A DNA stretch of 21,756 bases from a virus. Location: the IMG/VR virus record IMGVR_UViG_3300042387_002244, positions 1-21,756 of that record; one strand, given 5' to 3'. The notes below the pieces were generated by a model that had not been told where the DNA came from, ran no database searches, and saw only the letters and a program-made list of their open reading frames with translations. Shown here piece by piece: positions 4,840 to 20,367 of this stretch. Positions within the stretch are counted from its first letter, which is position 1; every line of letters begins with the position of its first letter. The position numbers and the translations under genes are program-made.

Positions 4840-5568
4840 ATGTCAAAAGTTGTATTAGCATTCTCCGGAGGTGCTGATTCTTCAGTCCTACTTCATATGG
4901 CAGCTGAAAAGTTTGATGAAGTGTATTGTTTGTTCTTTGATTATGGTCAAAGACATAAGAAAGAATTAGATTGCACACAAAAGCAACTGAAGAGTTTGAA
5001 GAAAAAGGTTGAGATGTTGGTTATTGATACACCATTAAATCTTCTTGCTCCAACTTCTTCTCTTACTAATCCAGATATTGATACACCTGATGTAAGAGAG
5101 ATGAGAGGTGAAGCTCAACCTAAGAGCTATGTAGCATTTCGAAATATGCTATTCATCTCTTATCTTTTGTCTTATGCAGAAGGTATCGGAGCTGACAAGG
5201 TTTGGTATGGTGCAGCTCAAGTTGACTCGTTAGCCGGCTACTGGGATGGAAGCCCTGAATTCTTAAAAAAGATCAATGATGTGGCTGCTTTGAATAGAGA
5301 GCATCGCATTGTTGTTGAAGCTCCTCTTTTGACTATGTCTAAGAAGGATATCATCTTAGAAGGTATTAGACTTGGAGTTAAGTTTAGTGATACTTGGACT
5401 TGCTATGCAGGTGAAGATAAAGCAGATGCATATACACCTTCATCAAGTCTCAGATTGCAAGGGTTTGTTGAAGCTGGATATATTGATCCAATTCCTTACA
5501 AACAAGACTTAACTAATGTTTGGGAAAAGAATAATTGTAAGAAGATATCTTACGAGAATTACCTATAA
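4840..5568 (+). CDS. queC: QueC-like 7-cyano-7-deazaguanine synthase, zinc site altered
   Basis: QueC is a PP-loop ATPase that converts 7-carboxy-7-deazaguanine to preQ0, the precursor of queuosine, archaeosine and phage 7-deazaguanine DNA bases. Visible signatures are the PP-loop SGGADSS (9-15), FDYGQRHKKEL, and the AFRNMLFIS segment; length (242) is normal. Odd point: QueC normally binds zinc with four cysteines, one in SCY/TCY and three in CGxCxxC before LR. Here only C188 remains; the other three positions read D196, T199 and S202 in DAYTPSSSLR. The enzyme may be zinc-free, altered in substrate, or stabilised differently. The start lies 3 nt after the uvsX stop (TAA-AAT-ATG), so it is probably translated by reinitiation. 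The 3' end overlaps a convergent gene by 10 nt. Confidence 0.88.
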   Translation: MSKVVLAFSGGADSSVLLHMAAEKFDEVYCLFFDYGQRHKKELDCTQKQLKSLKKKVEMLVIDTPLNLLAPTSSLTNPDIDTPDVREMRGEAQPKSYVAFRNMLFISYLLSYAEGIGADKVWYGAAQVDSLAGYWDGSPEFLKKINDVAALNREHRIVVEAPLLTMSKKDIILEGIRLGVKFSDTWTCYAGEDKADAYTPSSSLRLQGFVEAGYIDPIPYKQDLTNVWEKNNCKKISYENYL

Positions 5569-6622: not shown

Positions 6623-6630
6623 TATTTATT
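6623..6630 (-). promoter_or_regulatory. T4-type late promoter element (AATAAATA)
   Basis: Read on the minus strand, AATAAATA is separated by exactly 5 nt (ATTCT) from the ATG at 6617. It matches the T4 late promoter octamer TATAAATA in 7 of 8 positions. In T4 the octamer ends at about -6, so transcription would begin at the start codon. Confidence 0.6.
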
Positions 6631-7369: not shown

Positions 7370-8016
7370 TCCAACTAATATCAGCAACTAAAGGAAACTT
7401 ACAAACCACTTTACTACATAATAGCGTTGGTTTTATACACCCGGTAGCTTTTTCAGAGAATAATACCGACCCATTGCCTGTTGTTTATAATGATGCTATT
7501 GATGATTTTCAACAAACAACTGAGTGGCTTGTTTTTGTTCACGATGATGTAATAATTGAAGCACCTGAAGCATTAGAACGTCAACTTGATGTATTAGGAC
7601 ATGACTTCGATGTCGTTGGGTGTGCAGGTACAAGAGAGGCTAAATTACAAGAGCCAGCATTATGGCATTTGATGGGTGATAGATTACAGCATAGAGGTGC
7701 TGTAGCTCACTTAAGTGACTCAACTGGTAAGAAATTTATGACTAGTTTTGGTAGTTATCCTGATCGAGTTATATTAATCGATGGGGTGTTTATGGCTGTA
7801 AAGACAGAAGTCTTTAATAAAGTCAGATTTGACACAAACAATCCAGCTGGCTTTCACTTCTATGACTTAGATTTTTCTATGGCTTGTCATAAAGCTGGCT
7901 ATAAAGTCGGTGTTGGTGATATAGTAATCACACATGCATCACCAGGGTTGAGAAGCTTTACTGATGAATGGAAAAAAGGACAAGAGTGGTTCCTTAAAAA
8001 ATGGAAATCGAAATAA
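7366..8016 (+). CDS. Glycosyltransferase family 2-like protein
   Basis: A 216-residue GT-A-fold-like protein. The segment WLVFVHDDVII (H59, D60, D61) resembles the acidic DxD-type metal and nucleotide-sugar site; GFHFYDLDFSMACHKAGYKV near residues 162-182 and THASPG afterwards are typical of the small glycosyltransferase-like family described as Glyco_tranf_2_5. Together these suggest transfer of a sugar to an unknown acceptor. Translation is coupled to the amidotransferase through a 4-nt ATGA overlap. A strong bidirectional terminator follows immediately after the stop. Confidence 0.78.
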   Translation: MIQLISATKGNLQTTLLHNSVGFIHPVAFSENNTDPLPVVYNDAIDDFQQTTEWLVFVHDDVIIEAPEALERQLDVLGHDFDVVGCAGTREAKLQEPALWHLMGDRLQHRGAVAHLSDSTGKKFMTSFGSYPDRVILIDGVFMAVKTEVFNKVRFDTNNPAGFHFYDLDFSMACHKAGYKVGVGDIVITHASPGLRSFTDEWKKGQEWFLKKWKSK

Positions 8017-8047
8017 AAAAAAGGCGGCTTTAAGCCGCCTTTTTTTT
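8015..8047. terminator. Bidirectional rho-independent terminator
   Basis: GGCGGC / GCCGCC stem (extendable to 8 bp with a minimal loop) at 8023-8039, flanked by a run of A on the left and a run of T on the right. Read on either strand it is a stem followed by about eight U. It separates two convergent genes: the glycosyltransferase (stop at 8016) and the minus-strand DUF1501 gene (stop at 8046). Confidence 0.95.
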
Positions 8048-9305
8048 ATGCTAAGATCTTTTCTATTGGATCAGCTTCGTAAACAACCTCAACTGGTCTT
8101 AAATCAGGTGTCATTAGCTTCTTTCTTGGTGAAACACCAATTAAATGATAGAGAGTAGCAGCTATTTCACCAGGACTTACTGGATTTTCATCAGGTTCAG
8201 CTGCTAAAGCATCAGAAGTACCATAAGCAAAGCCTGCTTTAATACCCCCACCAGCTAAAACAGTAGAAAATACACGAGGCCAATGATCTCTACCGTTTGT
8301 ACTGTTAATTTTTGGTGTACGACCGAACTCAGACGATACCATTACGAGAGTGGATGATAATAAACCACGTTGTTTTAAGTCTGTAATGAAGTATGCATAA
8401 GCTTTATCAAAGTTTACCATGTTAGATTCAAAAGCTTGCTTGATATTTGAGTGGTGATCCCAGCCACCATATGTAACTGTGATCATTCTAACACCTGCTT
8501 CAATTAATCTACGTGTTAAAAGTAAGCGTTGACCAGCTGCGTTGCGTCCATATGCATCACGAACACTATTTGGCTCTTTAGATAGGTCAAATGCTTCACG
8601 AGCTTCTTTAGAAGAAATCATTGCATATGCTTGATTGTAAAAAGAATCCATTGCTTTAATGTTATCAACGTTAGATTCTCTTGTTTTGAAAAAATCATCA
8701 ACAGCACCAAGAAGAGCTTTACGTCTATCAAATTGTTTATCGGAAATATCCCTTGGTGTATTAAGATCTTTAACAACAAATCCAGGATCTTCTGGATTTG
8801 CACCTAAAGCAAATGGTCCATACTTAGTTGATAGATATCCTGTGCCATTTTCTGGTGCAAATTGATTAGGAACTAACACATATGGTGGTAAATTGTTACG
8901 ATTTCCTAATTCATGACTAATAACACTACCAAATGATGGATAAGTTAATGCTGGTGATGGTTTATAACCTGTCAACATATTATGAGTTCCTCTTTCATGA
9001 GCAGCTTCACCATGTGTAACAGAGCGAATTACAGTAAGATTATCAGCAATCTTAGCAGTTTCCTTAAGAAGTTCACCAAAATATACACCATCAATTTTGG
9101 TTTTGATACCACTAAATGGTCCTCTATATTCAGGTGAGCCATTCATCTTGTAATCCCACGATTCTTGATGAGCCATTCCACCTGGCAAGTAAATTTGCAC
9201 AACGGCATTAGCTTTTGGCTGTGTTTCTTGCTCAGCTTTTAACAGTTGAGGTAGTGAAATGCACCCAGCTGTACCGATTTTTAATATTTCGCGTCTGTTA
9301 TACAT
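8046..9305 (-). CDS. Tat-exported DUF1501 protein (copy 1), late-expressed type
   Basis: DUF1501 proteins are exported members of the alkaline phosphatase/sulfatase fold group, abundant in Planctomycetota; their substrate is unknown. The 419-residue protein starts with a twin-arginine signal (YNRREILKIGTAG) followed by LPQLLKAEQ. Family signatures: LPGGMAHQESWDYK, TYGGWDHHSN, SEFGRTPKINSTNGRDHWP, VLAGGGIKAG, and SPGEIAATLYHLIG near the end. Compared with the usual GGxSHxDxFD motif it reads GGMAHQESWD, so one acidic ligand may be changed. It is not a recent duplicate of the copy at 16742. It lies alone, opposite to the replication genes, behind a perfect TATAAATA late promoter, hence probably made late. 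Confidence 0.93.
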   Translation of the reverse strand: MYNRREILKIGTAGCISLPQLLKAEQETQPKANAVVQIYLPGGMAHQESWDYKMNGSPEYRGPFSGIKTKIDGVYFGELLKETAKIADNLTVIRSVTHGEAAHERGTHNMLTGYKPSPALTYPSFGSVISHELGNRNNLPPYVLVPNQFAPENGTGYLSTKYGPFALGANPEDPGFVVKDLNTPRDISDKQFDRRKALLGAVDDFFKTRESNVDNIKAMDSFYNQAYAMISSKEAREAFDLSKEPNSVRDAYGRNAAGQRLLLTRRLIEAGVRMITVTYGGWDHHSNIKQAFESNMVNFDKAYAYFITDLKQRGLLSSTLVMVSSEFGRTPKINSTNGRDHWPRVFSTVLAGGGIKAGFAYGTSDALAAEPDENPVSPGEIAATLYHLIGVSPRKKLMTPDLRPVEVVYEADPIEKILA

Positions 9306-9310
9306 ATTTG

Positions 9311-9318
9311 TATTTATA
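9311..9318 (-). promoter_or_regulatory. T4-type late promoter, perfect TATAAATA
   Basis: On the minus strand TATAAATA is followed by exactly 5 nt (CAAAT) and then the ATG of the DUF1501 gene at 9305. This is the complete T4 late consensus, with the same spacing as at 6623-6630 and 20360-20367. Confidence 0.72.
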
Positions 9319-14678: not shown

Positions 14679-14933
14679 ATGGCTCCAGAGAAATATAAAG
14701 CATACGCGGTAACTCGTGGTACTTACCTAGGTGAAATGCTCATTTGGATTGAAAACGTTGCAGAAGACTATGGGTTTATTTCAGTTCCTAAAAATATTAA
14801 CAGATTAATACCTAAAGATAAGTTTAAATTTGGTATTGAAAATGAAATACTAGATATAGTTGATACTATACCAGAAAACGTGTATAAAATACTACACGCA
14901 CAGTACATGTATAACAAAATACACAAAAAATAA
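14679..14933 (+). CDS. Small unknown protein, 84 residues
   Basis: Compact globular-looking protein: YAVTRGTYLGEMLIWIENV, GFISVPKNINRLIPKDKF, then a helical end. No membrane segment or cysteine motif. The ATG at 14679 (MAPEKY) is chosen over an in-frame GTG at 14661 because it lies 4 nt past the previous stop. It looks like one of the small conserved proteins of T4-type phages, but I cannot name it. It is the last gene before the DUF1549/DUF1501 pair. Confidence 0.65.
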   Translation: MAPEKYKAYAVTRGTYLGEMLIWIENVAEDYGFISVPKNINRLIPKDKFKFGIENEILDIVDTIPENVYKILHAQYMYNKIHKK

Positions 14934-14952
14934 TTAAATAATATAGGTTCAT

Positions 14953-16737
14953 ATGAAAACGTTATTTTTTATCCTAATGTTTGCGGTAACTGCTGTTGCT
15001 GCTACTGTCGAGCAACTCAATAATTATAGTGGTTGGATAGATTCAGTGTTAGAAAAGCAATATACCGCTATAAACATTACACCTTTGAATCGAATTAACG
15101 ATGATACGTTCGTTCGCAGAGCATATCTTACTATTGTTGGCCGTAATCCTACATATGAAGAGTATGAAATGTTTAGTAAGGTAAATGACCCAAACAAAAG
15201 ACAAGGATTAATCCAGTTTTTATTGAAACACCCAGGTCATATTTCACATATGTTCAATTTCTGGGCTGAATCTTTAAGATTAAGAGATAGATTAAGCAAT
15301 ATCAATAACTTTTCTGGTGGTCCTTATATTGATTATATTAAAGATTCAATTGCAGCAAATAAACCATATAATAAATTTGTAACAGAGCTATTAACATCAA
15401 CCGGTTCATATTATGATAACCCAGCTACTGGGTATTTCTATCGTGATTTAGGAATGCCTTTAGATAATCTTATTGCTACTGGTAAAGTATTCATGGGTAC
15501 TGATATTGGTTGTGCACAATGTCACGACGACCCATTCCAAGACTTTACTCAAATGCAGTTCTATAAGATGGCCGCTATGTTTAATCAGGTGGAACTTAGA
15601 GGTCGTGGTAAAGATAAAGATCCAGCTGTTGCAGCTCGTCAAAAAGCTTTGAGAGATGAAGTAGATGCTTTGATTAAAGCTGATCCAATGAAAAATCGTG
15701 GATTGAACAATACAATTAATAACTTTGTAGCAGCAATGCGTGCAAATCTTGAAATTGATGGTGGTAGACAATTAAAATTACCACATGATTACAATTATAA
15801 AGATGCAAAACCAAATGATGTTGTGGAACCTGCAGTGCTCACAGGTAAAGCTCAAATTAAAAACAAAGATGATATGAGACAAGATGTGGTTAGCTGGTTA
15901 GTTAACCCAGAACACCCAACATTTACTAAAAATATTGTCAATCGCTACTGGAAATGGGTGTTTGGTAAACATATTATTGATGATTATGATAATATCCATG
16001 ATAGTGAAAAGCTAAATGGTGAGCTTATGAACACCCTTGCTAAAATTATGGTAAGTGTTGGGTATGATAATAGACAATTCCTTTTTGTGCTTCTCAATAC
16101 AAAGCTTTTCCAACGTGAACTTTACGATGGAGCATATTCTAACTCTGAAAAGTTTGTGTTTATTGGACCCGTTAAACAAAGATTAACAGCAGAACAAATG
16201 TGGGATTCAGTTATGGCTGTTGCAGTTGATAGACCTGATTCATTTAAACTTACATTCCAAGACGAATATGTTAAGGTAATGAGATATACCATTGAAGATC
16301 TTACTATTGATCGTTTGAAAGCAAAGAACGAAGAATATCAAAAGATTATGCGTTCAAAATATGAAACAGCACCGAAATATCGTAATTACCCACTAGTTAG
16401 AGCATCTGAAGTAAATGATAACAGCCCTGTTAATACAATTCTAGAACAACTTGGCCGTGGTGATCGTGAACTTATTGATACATCTTCAAGAGAAGGTTCT
16501 GTTACACAGGTGATTTCGTTCATGAATGGCCAACTAGCTGAGGTAGCTGTTAATAAAGATACATATCTCGCTAAAAACATTGCTGGTAAACCTCCAGGTG
16601 ATACTATTGAGATTATTTTCAAGTCTGTTTTATCAAGAAAACCAACAATGGATGAAAAAGCCACGTTTGTTGGTGTGCAAGATGATGACATCATCTGGGC
16701 ACTTATCAATAGTTCTGAATTTAAATTTAATAAATAA
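14953..16737 (+). CDS. Secreted DUF1549/DUF1553 protein with CxxCH motif (Planctomycetota type)
   Basis: A 594-residue exported protein of the DUF1549-DUF1553 type, known as planctomycete cytochrome-associated proteins of unknown reaction. A Sec signal peptide (MKTLFFILMFAVTAVAA) leads. DUF1549 covers roughly residues 25-205: INDDTFVRRAYLTIVGRNPTYEE and VFMGTDIGCAQCHDDPF, with C187-A-Q-C190-H191 forming a c-type haem motif. DUF1553 covers roughly 310-580: MRQDVVSWLVNPEHPTFTKN, NRYWKWVFGKHIIDDYD, RLTAEQMWDSVMAV, and LSRKPTMDEKA. The DUF1501 gene starts 4 nt after the stop, the same pairing found in Planctomycetota. No premature stops, so it is probably functional. Host-derived acquisition is inferred. 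Base composition looks like the neighbours, suggesting it is not very recent. Confidence 0.93.
   Translation: MKTLFFILMFAVTAVAATVEQLNNYSGWIDSVLEKQYTAINITPLNRINDDTFVRRAYLTIVGRNPTYEEYEMFSKVNDPNKRQGLIQFLLKHPGHISHMFNFWAESLRLRDRLSNINNFSGGPYIDYIKDSIAANKPYNKFVTELLTSTGSYYDNPATGYFYRDLGMPLDNLIATGKVFMGTDIGCAQCHDDPFQDFTQMQFYKMAAMFNQVELRGRGKDKDPAVAARQKALRDEVDALIKADPMKNRGLNNTINNFVAAMRANLEIDGGRQLKLPHDYNYKDAKPNDVVEPAVLTGKAQIKNKDDMRQDVVSWLVNPEHPTFTKNIVNRYWKWVFGKHIIDDYDNIHDSEKLNGELMNTLAKIMVSVGYDNRQFLFVLLNTKLFQRELYDGAYSNSEKFVFIGPVKQRLTAEQMWDSVMAVAVDRPDSFKLTFQDEYVKVMRYTIEDLTIDRLKAKNEEYQKIMRSKYETAPKYRNYPLVRASEVNDNSPVNTILEQLGRGDRELIDTSSREGSVTQVISFMNGQLAEVAVNKDTYLAKNIAGKPPGDTIEIIFKSVLSRKPTMDEKATFVGVQDDDIIWALINSSEFKFNK
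15511..15525 (+). other. CxxCH c-type haem-binding motif in coding sequence
   Basis: TGT GCA CAA TGT CAC encodes Cys-Ala-Gln-Cys-His, residues 187-191 of the DUF1549/DUF1553 protein, within the family-conserved G-x-x-CAQCH-D-x-PF block. Whether haem is bound depends on export and a host cytochrome c maturation system. Confidence 0.7.
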
Positions 16738-16741
16738 TAAT

Positions 16742-17977
16742 ATGAATACACTAACCCGCCGTAATTTTGTACTTAACCTAGCGTCTACTGGGTTGGGTGT
16801 AACCGTTCTACCACATGTTATAGCTGCACCAGCTAGCAAAAAAGCAGAACATATCATTTATCTGTTTATGAATGGTGGTATGAGCCATTTGGATACTTTC
16901 GATCCAAAAACTAATGCTGAAGTTAAAGGTGAATTCAATTCTATTGCTACAAATGCAGATTATCACATTTCTGAACACTTACCTTTAATGGCTAAGCATG
17001 GTGATAAGATGGCAGTTGTTCGTTCTATGATGGTTACAACGGGAGATCATGCAGGTGCGCAGTATTTGCAAAGAACATCATTCAAGAAGATTGGTACAAT
17101 TATTCACCCTAATATGGGAGCTTGGATGTGTCATTTTACTGAAGATAACAAACCAAAAGTCATCCCACAAAACGTTTTAATTGGTGGTGGTGCAGATCAT
17201 CCTGGTTCTGGTTGGATGCCAAAGAAATATTCTCCAATTCCAGTTACAGATCCAATGAGAGGTCTTGATAATACCAAGCTTAAAGATGCTGCTGAGTTCT
17301 CTAAGAGAGTTGCGATCTTGGATAAGCTTGAAAGAGATGCAAATAAGATTATTAACCCAGCTCAAAAGTCATACGCTGAGTTTTATGATCAAACTATTCG
17401 TCTTCTTAACTCAAAAGATCTTGATGTGTTCGATCTTTCTAAGGTAGATCAAGCAACAAGAGAAAAATATGGTAATAACCGTTTTGGTCAAGGTGTTTGC
17501 TTAGCAAAACGTCTTATCCAAGAAGGTGGTTGTAAGTTTATTGAAGTAACAGATGGTGGTTGGGATACTCACGTGAATAACTTCGAAGCTCTTGAAAATA
17601 AACTTAAGATTCTCGATCAAGCTGTCAATACCCTTATTGAAGATCTTAAATCTTCTGGTCTTCTTGAGAAAACTCTTATCGTAATTGCAACAGACTTTGG
17701 TAGAACGCCAAATATCAATATTAACAACGGTAGAGACCACCACCCAGGTGCATTTAGCGGTGTTCTCATTGGTGCAGGTATCAAAGGTGGTCAAGTATAT
17801 GGTAAATCTGATGAAAAAGGTATGAAAGCAGTTGAATCACCTGTAAGCCCAGCTGATTTTAATGCTACTATCGCTGCTGCTGCGGGATTACCTGTTGAAG
17901 AGATTGTAATCTCACCAGAAGGTAGACCATTCAAGATCGCAGATAAAGGCAAGCCTGTACAACAACTTTTAGCTTGA
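16742..17977 (+). CDS. Tat-exported DUF1501 protein (copy 2), paired with DUF1549/DUF1553 gene
   Basis: A 411-residue member of the DUF1501 family (alkaline phosphatase/sulfatase-like fold, substrate unknown). The twin-arginine signal is LTRRNFVLNLASTGLGV, R6 and R7. Signatures are closer to the family norm than in copy 1: NGGMSHLDTFDPK (D51, D54), TDGGWDTHVNN, ATDFGRTPN, NGRDHHPGAFSGVLIGAGIK, GQVYGKSDEKG, and SPEGRPFKI near the end. These Asp and His residues are candidate metal ligands. ATG 16742 is chosen because it lies 4 nt after the previous stop and starts the Tat signal; a longer in-frame opening from 16580 would add sequence overlapping the upstream gene. Both proteins are exported, one by Sec and one by Tat, so they probably act together outside the cytoplasm. 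Confidence 0.94.
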   Translation: MNTLTRRNFVLNLASTGLGVTVLPHVIAAPASKKAEHIIYLFMNGGMSHLDTFDPKTNAEVKGEFNSIATNADYHISEHLPLMAKHGDKMAVVRSMMVTTGDHAGAQYLQRTSFKKIGTIIHPNMGAWMCHFTEDNKPKVIPQNVLIGGGADHPGSGWMPKKYSPIPVTDPMRGLDNTKLKDAAEFSKRVAILDKLERDANKIINPAQKSYAEFYDQTIRLLNSKDLDVFDLSKVDQATREKYGNNRFGQGVCLAKRLIQEGGCKFIEVTDGGWDTHVNNFEALENKLKILDQAVNTLIEDLKSSGLLEKTLIVIATDFGRTPNININNGRDHHPGAFSGVLIGAGIKGGQVYGKSDEKGMKAVESPVSPADFNATIAAAAGLPVEEIVISPEGRPFKIADKGKPVQQLLA

Positions 17978-18001
17978 TTGTTTAAGGAAATCATCTATAA
18001 T
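17974..18001 (+). promoter_or_regulatory. Sigma70-like promoter for exonuclease gene
   Basis: TTGATT (17974-17979), 16-nt spacer, perfect TATAAT (17996-18001), then exactly 6 nt (AAGGGT) before ATG 18008. The -35 box overlaps the DUF1501 stop codon. This is the best promoter of its type in the window and supports 18008 as the start. Confidence 0.6.
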
Positions 18002-18007
18002 AAGGGT

Positions 18008-18874
18008 ATGACAACTCTTATTATAGATGGTAATAACCTAGTGCACCGCTGTTACTGGGTAGCTAATCAAACAAAAACGCAAGAAAATAGCTTTTTGCAT
18101 GTGTTTATGTTTATCAATGCGATTAAATCATATGTAGAGAAGTATAAACCTGATAAGATTTTTTGCTGCTGGGATGAAAAACACGAAAACAACACTAACG
18201 AACGTAAAGAGCAGTTTGCTGACTACAAAGGCAACCGAGATAAGGTATATAGTGCTGAAGTTCATGCAAAAAACTCTTATATTAAGAAACTTCTTGATTC
18301 TCTCGGTGTAAAGAACTTCTTTCCGTTACGTTTGGAAGCTGATGACTGTATGGCTTTCTTATCGAAAGAAATGCCAGGTAAAAAGGTTATCGTTACAGTT
18401 GATCGAGACATGTACCAATGCATTAATGAGCATGTAAAGGTGTATGACCCTATTCGCAAACGTGAAGTTAACGTTAAAAACTTTGAAGAAATCGTTAAAG
18501 TTCCTTTAACTCGGTTTTTAATTGATAAATGCTTTAGAGGTGATAAGTCTGATAACGTTCCAGGTGTAACTGGAATGGGTTCTAAAGCTATCGAAAAGTA
18601 TTTCAATGGTAAATATAGCACAACTGATGAGCAGAATAATCAGTTTAAACGCAATTATGAACTTTTTCGATTAGACAAATATTCTTCATCTACAGATGAA
18701 TTGAGCTGGTATAAAGAACAGCTTGAAATTGAACAACCTCATAATTTCAAGCTGTTTAAACAACATTGCGAAGAAATGAACTTGAGTTCTGTTCTTTCAA
18801 ACGAAAGTAAATGGTATAATGCATTTTGTTTTGGAAAAGACTTTAATGGGTATATATTGAATTTGTTAAAATGA
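18008..18874 (+). CDS. rnh: 5'-3' exonuclease / RNase H (T4 Rnh-like, FEN family)
   Basis: Removes RNA primers and flaps from lagging-strand fragments. 288 residues against 305 for T4 RNase H. The FEN active-site acids are visible: LIIDGNN (D7), CCWDEKHE (D56), LEADDCMAF (E110, D112, D113), TVDRDMYQ (D132, D134), and FRGDKSDNVPGVTGMGSKA (D179, D182), the last being the helix-hairpin-helix region. All appear intact. ATG 18008 is preferred over an in-frame TTG at 17978 because the protein then starts MTTLIIDGNN, standard for the family, and a TATAAT box sits 6 nt upstream. Its stop overlaps the primase start (ATGA), tying the two lagging-strand genes together. Confidence 0.94.
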   Translation: MTTLIIDGNNLVHRCYWVANQTKTQENSFLHVFMFINAIKSYVEKYKPDKIFCCWDEKHENNTNERKEQFADYKGNRDKVYSAEVHAKNSYIKKLLDSLGVKNFFPLRLEADDCMAFLSKEMPGKKVIVTVDRDMYQCINEHVKVYDPIRKREVNVKNFEEIVKVPLTRFLIDKCFRGDKSDNVPGVTGMGSKAIEKYFNGKYSTTDEQNNQFKRNYELFRLDKYSSSTDELSWYKEQLEIEQPHNFKLFKQHCEEMNLSSVLSNESKWYNAFCFGKDFNGYILNLLK

Positions 18875-20359: not shown

Positions 20360-20367
20360 TATTTATT
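20360..20367 (-). promoter_or_regulatory. T4-type late promoter element (AATAAATA)
   Basis: Minus-strand AATAAATA, then exactly 5 nt (ATATT), then the ATG at 20354. Same octamer and spacing as at 6623-6630. Confidence 0.6.

Follow-up and report, generated by a model that had tools for sequence, protein, structure and literature searches.

The window, meaning the whole stretch of DNA that was analysed (21,756 nt), derives from a T4-like phage; this 21.8-kb IMG/VR fragment encodes the T4-type replication genes gp43, uvsX, gp41, gp32, gp45, and gp61 together with a 5'-3' exonuclease, here termed RNaseH. A sister genome of 184.5 kb (G001, loci L214-L223), in which the gene order around c1 is as in the window, contains gp23 (PF07068), and the T4-like set gp43/uvsX/gp41/gp32/gp45/gp61/gp23 is complete when G001 is combined with the window, which, itself a fragment, supplied the other members. 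The window also carries QueC (4840-5568) and G001 carries QueD-like and GTP cyclohydrolase families, which possibly form a deazaguanine DNA modification pathway. The sequence-only reading had described a second, divergent DUF1501 gene on the opposite strand, and this gene, c1, is borne out by its open reading frame, by its match to the Pfam family DUF1501 (PF07394; 359.4 bits at a cut-off of 27, c1 residues 33-418 against profile positions 2-390 of 390) and by an overall identity of about 33% to the other copy, c2, which matches the same profile with 334.8 bits. c1 lies alone and inverted, flanked by a glycosyltransferase (GT2) gene and the helicase gene gp41, whereas c2 is preceded by the PSD1 gene and forms with it a pair within the replication block (Table 1). 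The starts of c1 and PSD1 lie 5.65 kb apart, rather than the 5.4 kb given by the sequence-only reading. The start of c2 is the ATG followed by a Tat-type sequence, the listed start at 16580 being too early. The difference between the two copies in the first motif (GGMSHLDTFD in c2) is seen in the translations.

Table 1. Positions of c1, PSD1, c2 and their associated features in the window
Feature	Positions	Strand	Remarks
Terminator-like hairpin	8013-8049	-	17-pair stem, T (A/T) runs on both flanks; c1/GT2 interval
c1 (DUF1501 copy 1)	8046-9305	-	ORF, ATG start, 419 aa
GRDHWP, c1 residues 338-343	8277-8294	-	H341 candidate metal ligand
EFGRTP, c1 residues 326-331	8313-8330	-	E326 candidate metal ligand
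GGWDHH, c1 residues 280-285	8451-8468	-	D283 and H285 candidate metal ligands
His103 (H103) codon of c1	8997-8999	-	invariant, 91/91
First motif GGMAHQESWD, c1 residues 42-51	9153-9182	-	sequence alignment
Tat-type signal motif NRREILK, c1 residues 3-9	9279-9299	-	sequence motif
T4-type late promoter octamer TATAAATA	9311-9318	-	exact match, 5 nt before c1 ATG
Late-type motif (TTAAATA core)	14933-14940	+	12 nt before PSD1 ATG
PSD1, DUF1549 (PSCyt2) + DUF1553	14953-16737	+	594 aa, signal-peptide-like N-terminus, c2 partner
CxxCH (CAQCH) heme-c-type motif in PSD1	15511-15525	+	sequence motif
AATAAATA	16729-16736	+	late-type motif, 5 nt before c2 ATG
c2 (DUF1501 copy 2)	16742-17977	+	411 aa, Tat-type start MNTLTRRNFV

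Nearly all phage DUF1501 copies, including c1 and c2, share a Tat-type motif (recognised as a motif rather than by a signal predictor), which supports the predicted export of c1 via Tat. The CxxCH motif of PSD1 is kept in every phage copy covering that region and suggests that PSD1 may bind heme. Comparison with relatives gave dN/dS values of 0.06-0.19 for c1 and of 0.04-0.10 for c2, the latter range leaving out a low-identity comparison with L004 in which the wrong copy had been matched, and these low values indicate that both genes are functional in phages. Among the phage records of INPHARED, a single weak partial match to c1 and no match to c2 were obtained.

As a string, the octamer upstream of c1 occurs at chance level, as 74 copies with one mismatch were found in the whole window versus 73.6 expected, and its significance therefore lies in its position. 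In G001, 32 of 232 ORFs have a TAAATA whose end lies exactly 5 nt ahead of the ATG, where 0.15 would be expected per position, and 9 further ORFs have it at 6 nt, while random placement of the 70 TAAATA hits of this genome yielded at most 8 at any one position in 2000 trials. The genes with the motif at -5 include those for the portal (gp20) and the head protease (gp21), both named by homology. The objection that 5 nt is too near the ATG for a T4 late promoter is overturned by this spacing statistic. The same peak is present in G005, G006, G008, G009, G013, G015, and G051. A weak -5 signal was also noticed in the Pelagibacter phage Mosig (4 of 39 ORFs), and further late-type TAAATA sites following the 5-nt rule occur in the window at 6623-6630 and 20360-20367. 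In front of c1 itself the gap is 5 nt in nine lineages (the window, L004, L005, G001, L007, L008, G005, G008, and L170), even where a holin-like gene adjoins c1, and 6 nt in G009 and L012; among the lineages compared for the c1 upstream gap, no TAAATA was found before c1 in G006 and G030. The exact spacing that had been pointed out for the window is thus conserved.

In T4, late transcription depends on gp55, gp33, and gp45, the late octamer lies at about -13 to -6, and transcription starts about 6-7 nt after it. The phage group studied here resembles T4 in the octamer TATAAATA, in the gp55-type late sigma encoded by G001 (phrog_234) and in the gp45 encoded by the window (phrog_223). It differs from T4 in the gap of 5 nt between octamer and ATG; the same simple method, applied to T4 as a control, places the motif 27-28 nt upstream. 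Shine-Dalgarno-like sequences precede only 9 of the 232 ORFs in G001 versus 22 of 38 in the T4 control, and rare Shine-Dalgarno sequences combined with the 5-nt gap point to leaderless late mRNAs in this phage group. If the T4 initiation geometry is followed, the c1 transcript would begin at the A of the ATG, and we infer a transcript start at or adjoining the start codon. From this promoter and its spacing, it is very likely that c1 is expressed late, and with the hairpin that follows it, c1 is very probably a monocistronic, near-leaderless late gene with its own terminator. A sigma-70-like candidate on the c1 strand (TTGAAA-17-TATTAT, 9346-9318) was rejected, as the number of such sites is within chance expectation; it also deviates from early-type promoter spacing.

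The PSD1-c2 pair is likewise preceded by late-type motifs, with gaps of 12 nt for PSD1 in the window, 6 nt in G005 and 5 nt for PSD1 in G051. The motif AATAAATA in front of c2 is weaker evidence for a promoter, because it overlaps the end of the PSD1 coding region. A second promoter class was observed in G001, in which TATAAT ends 6 nt before the ATG of 31 ORFs, accompanied in 25 of them by AGGA ending at -19; these are probably leaderless early promoters. A site of this class in the window (17996-18001, ATG at 18008) suggests that RNaseH starts at 18008 rather than at 17978.

To place both copies among their bacterial homologs, a DUF1501 tree of 91 phage and bacterial rows was used. c1 joins Verrucomicrobiaceae (support 98) inside a family of 33 rows (support 99), whereas c2 belongs to a different family (support 99), in which most bacterial genes are immediately preceded by PSD1. 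The position of c1 and c2 in different bacterial clades indicates that their split is older than the phages, and a recent duplication in a phage is ruled out. Strong c1-type matches were found in all 15 bacterial genomes searched, as a single gene in 13 and as two genes in the remaining ones; the genomes examined for c2-like genes gave 5-54 matches each. In many of the 15 genomes, genes for a long exported protein and a PSD1 protein come after the c1-type gene. There is little doubt that the module is host-derived, and on these sequence relationships the host of the window phage is probably a PVC bacterium, most likely of the Verrucomicrobiota.

Searches of IMG/VR contigs gave 94 confirmed c1-type and 25 confirmed c2-type matches. 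In four diverged sisters (G005, G006, G008, and G009), c1, PSD1, and c2 are contiguous and co-oriented. These sisters share 66-71% capsid and 58-61% portal identity with G001, and the common capsid and portal identify them as relatives of the window phage. In G005, G006, and G008, the unit is directly followed by gp15-like, portal, gp21, and gp23 genes, whereas in G009 a distance of about 18 kb separates it from gp23. Conversely, GT2 adjoins gp41 without c1 in 68 contigs (40 non-redundant; gp41 61-66% identical), and orf14661 adjoins RNaseH without PSD1-c2 in 43 contigs. Inserts are carried by 6 contigs of the window lineage at the c1 site and by 5 at the PSD1-c2 site, and both inserts occur in that lineage alone. 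As both are missing at the same sites of relatives, a joint gain is favoured over two unrelated gains. The insert-less relatives are mostly fragments and a large one, G051, carries PSD1-c2 elsewhere, which speaks for relocation or gain at these sites and does not show that those phages lack the module.

It is likely that c1, PSD1, and c2 constitute one functional module. Its distribution is most simply explained by a late module whose genes stand together in several sisters but were separated and moved in the window lineage, with the c1 promoter retained. The three genes are not obligatory together, as is evident from phages that carry only PSD1-c2 (G015, 197 kb; G051, 171 kb) and from marine contigs with DUF1501 genes but without PSCyt2. 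That the module passed recently from phage to phage was considered, because c2 is about 90% identical and the portal only 58-61%, but was rejected: the fourfold-site figures for c1 and PSD1 in G005 and G006 (0.54-0.65) are near saturation, and constraint explains the high identity of the module better than recent transfer does. For c2 in G005 this figure is 0.41, and this gene may be an exception to the constraint reading.

These arrangements bear on the view of the sequence-only reading that the two copies represent two gains or an old duplication and act at separate times. The old split holds. Independent acquisition of c1 and c2, each with its own function and timing, would agree with the different bacterial clades and opposite strands of c1 and c2 and with the phages that carry just one of them, but it appears very unlikely given the contiguous c1-PSD1-c2 units of four diverged sisters, the relatives that have neither insert at the corresponding sites and the late-type motifs on PSD1 and, less clearly, on c2. 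In view of the same contiguous units and the late-type motifs of the PSD1-c2 pair, a temporal separation of the two activities is not supported.

Some observations on the wider gene neighbourhood may be added. Large marine viral contigs (L034-L082; G022-G027), lacking PSCyt2 and a Gp23-type capsid match, carry as many as four distinct DUF1501 genes per contig, one copy being c1-type. One DUF1501-bearing viral contig encodes a DUF1559-like protein (L064:7239-8216; PF07596 was among the scanned neighbours), DUF1559 being a family typical of Planctomycetes. A phrog_3704 ('ferredoxin') gene occurs near c1 in G006 (L224:3422-4054), in G009 (L233:8551-9243) and probably in G030 (G030:37006-37707), and away from c1 in G001 (45354-45959), where it is 70-79% conserved.

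A sequence search of the PDB with c1 gave no match. Its AlphaFold model (pLDDT 86) matched sulfatases and LtaS in a Foldseek search (E 1e-7), and with VIA it matched nucleotide pyrophosphatase/phosphodiesterases (NPP) and PafA (Z 20.1, rmsd 3.4, 248 aligned). According to the model, c1 thus appears to have the fold of the NPP/PafA/sulfatase (alkaline phosphatase) superfamily. H103, D283, H285, F327, R329, R339, and H341 are invariant in all 91 DUF1501 rows, and position 326 is E or D in every row (D in c2). By hhalign, EFGRTP of c1 was aligned with SEYG of the phosphodiesterase family PF01663, and the candidate ligands D283, H285, E326, and H341 are conserved in the motif order of the superfamily, as judged from sequence alignments rather than from superposed coordinates. 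c1 therefore resembles the superfamily in fold and in the order of the D-x-H, E/D, and H motifs, but differs from it in showing no recognisable Ser/Thr/formylglycine nucleophile of the usual kind. At the start of the corresponding helix it has the invariant H103 instead, which we infer, from secondary structure rather than superposition, to be the first residue of the helix bearing the superfamily nucleophile. For the two-metal site of the superfamily, the structure prediction suggested earlier provided a fold and the alignments an ordered set of candidate ligands, but not the nucleophile, and H103 may point to an unusual or non-hydrolytic chemistry of c1. Neither the sequence nor the structure model of PSD1 had a match in the PDB, and a missing fold match does not prove a new fold.

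The predicted fold would also suit an auxiliary metabolic module, whose exported enzymes would free phosphate or sulfate or aid polysaccharide use and so sustain growth of the infected cell, the late motif merely reflecting strong expression. The abundance of DUF1501 genes in host genomes, with 5-54 c2-like matches each, can be counted for this explanation, as can the discussion of planctomycete-specific cytochrome genes alongside saccharide degradation in lake Verrucomicrobia (PMC5615132). We consider it rather unlikely, as c1 has a late promoter, the module adjoins the structural block in three sisters, and c1 shows an invariant His where no phosphatase or sulfatase nucleophile can be recognised.

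The explanation that we prefer, with a probability of roughly 0.45, is that of a host-derived, late, periplasmic three-gene module that would modify the host envelope and loosen or alter the surface for progeny release or against re-adsorption. An envelope system of PVC-bacterial origin, most likely from Verrucomicrobiota, would be carried by this T4-like phage group, and gp55/gp45-dependent late transcription would initiate at or adjoining the c1 start codon and yield a short or leaderless mRNA. c1 would fold with metal ions in the cytoplasm and then be exported in folded form by the host Tat system, joined by c2, likewise through Tat, and by PSD1, which bears a c-type heme motif and would be exported through Sec. 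Once in the periplasm or envelope, the three proteins might act on an envelope glycan or on a phospho- or sulfo-ester, and the resulting change would release progeny or prevent re-adsorption. The assignment to envelope and egress as such is tentative. It is favoured by late timing, by export and by lysis-type neighbours in two sister lineages. In G005 (L230:12101-12436) and G006 (L224:4063-4914), c1 is preceded at a distance of 29-35 nt by a holin-like gene, further upstream of which G006 has a matrixin-type (Peptidase_M10) protease gene, and a holin-like gene also adjoins c1 in L014, L015, and L170 (L170:4410-4739); the holin assignment is weak (phrog_126, E 1e-4; Pfam score under the cut-off). 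In G009, an NlpC/P60-type hydrolase with a signal-peptide-like start is encoded between c1 and PSD1 (L233:10899-11393). Among the c1 neighbours at 34 viral loci there is no general enrichment of lysis genes, as only 2 of 136 proteins match a holin family, and a general lysis cassette was rejected on this tally; c1 itself has no homology to holins, endolysins, or spanins. Of the late roles envisaged by the sequence-only reading, virion assembly is unlikely because c1 carries a Tat export motif, while c1 may act in lysis or release, for which these neighbourhoods give partial support.

A late, exported and envelope-directed module could also be imagined to serve superinfection exclusion or receptor masking, with a changed cell surface that stops progeny and debris from trapping new virions or keeps competitors out, and glycosyltransferase-like genes are also present in the window. 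However, exclusion functions are early as a rule and no connection of the module to receptor genes was found, which makes this alternative distinctly improbable. It is likewise doubtful, at a similarly low level, that the envelope-modifying module represents a new class of late egress or envelope-remodelling system for PVC bacteria, composed of two Tat-exported superfamily enzymes, whose catalytic region has an atypical invariant His, and an exported c-type heme protein, all made from leaderless late transcripts.

Planctomycetes and Verrucomicrobia have strongly expanded sets of DUF1501, PSCyt, and PSD1 genes, which are without known function, and the minimal phage set of three proteins, under purifying selection and with late-type promoters, offers a small and tractable route to the function of these families. 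The promoter spacing leads to a general testable prediction, namely that late mRNAs are leaderless throughout a large aquatic group of T4-like phages. In the literature covered, which comprised few subscription journals and preprints, no account of DUF1501 systems in phages was found beyond a weak match to a 61-aa protein. In PVC bacteria, a genomic module of DUF1501 and PSCyt/PSD1 genes has been described (Kamneva et al., 2012), as far as it is conveyed by PMC4452313 and PMC4960237. The phage module consists of the same families and shares with the bacterial one the position of PSD1 directly upstream of DUF1501, but the bacterial PSD1 proteins encoded near c1-type genes measure about 810-1080 aa and the phage PSD1 about 594 aa, and the phage units carry late-type promoters. 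With phage auxiliary metabolic genes the module has in common that it is host-derived and under purifying selection in phage genomes, whereas it differs from them in being late and exported and in having a partner gene with a c-type heme motif.
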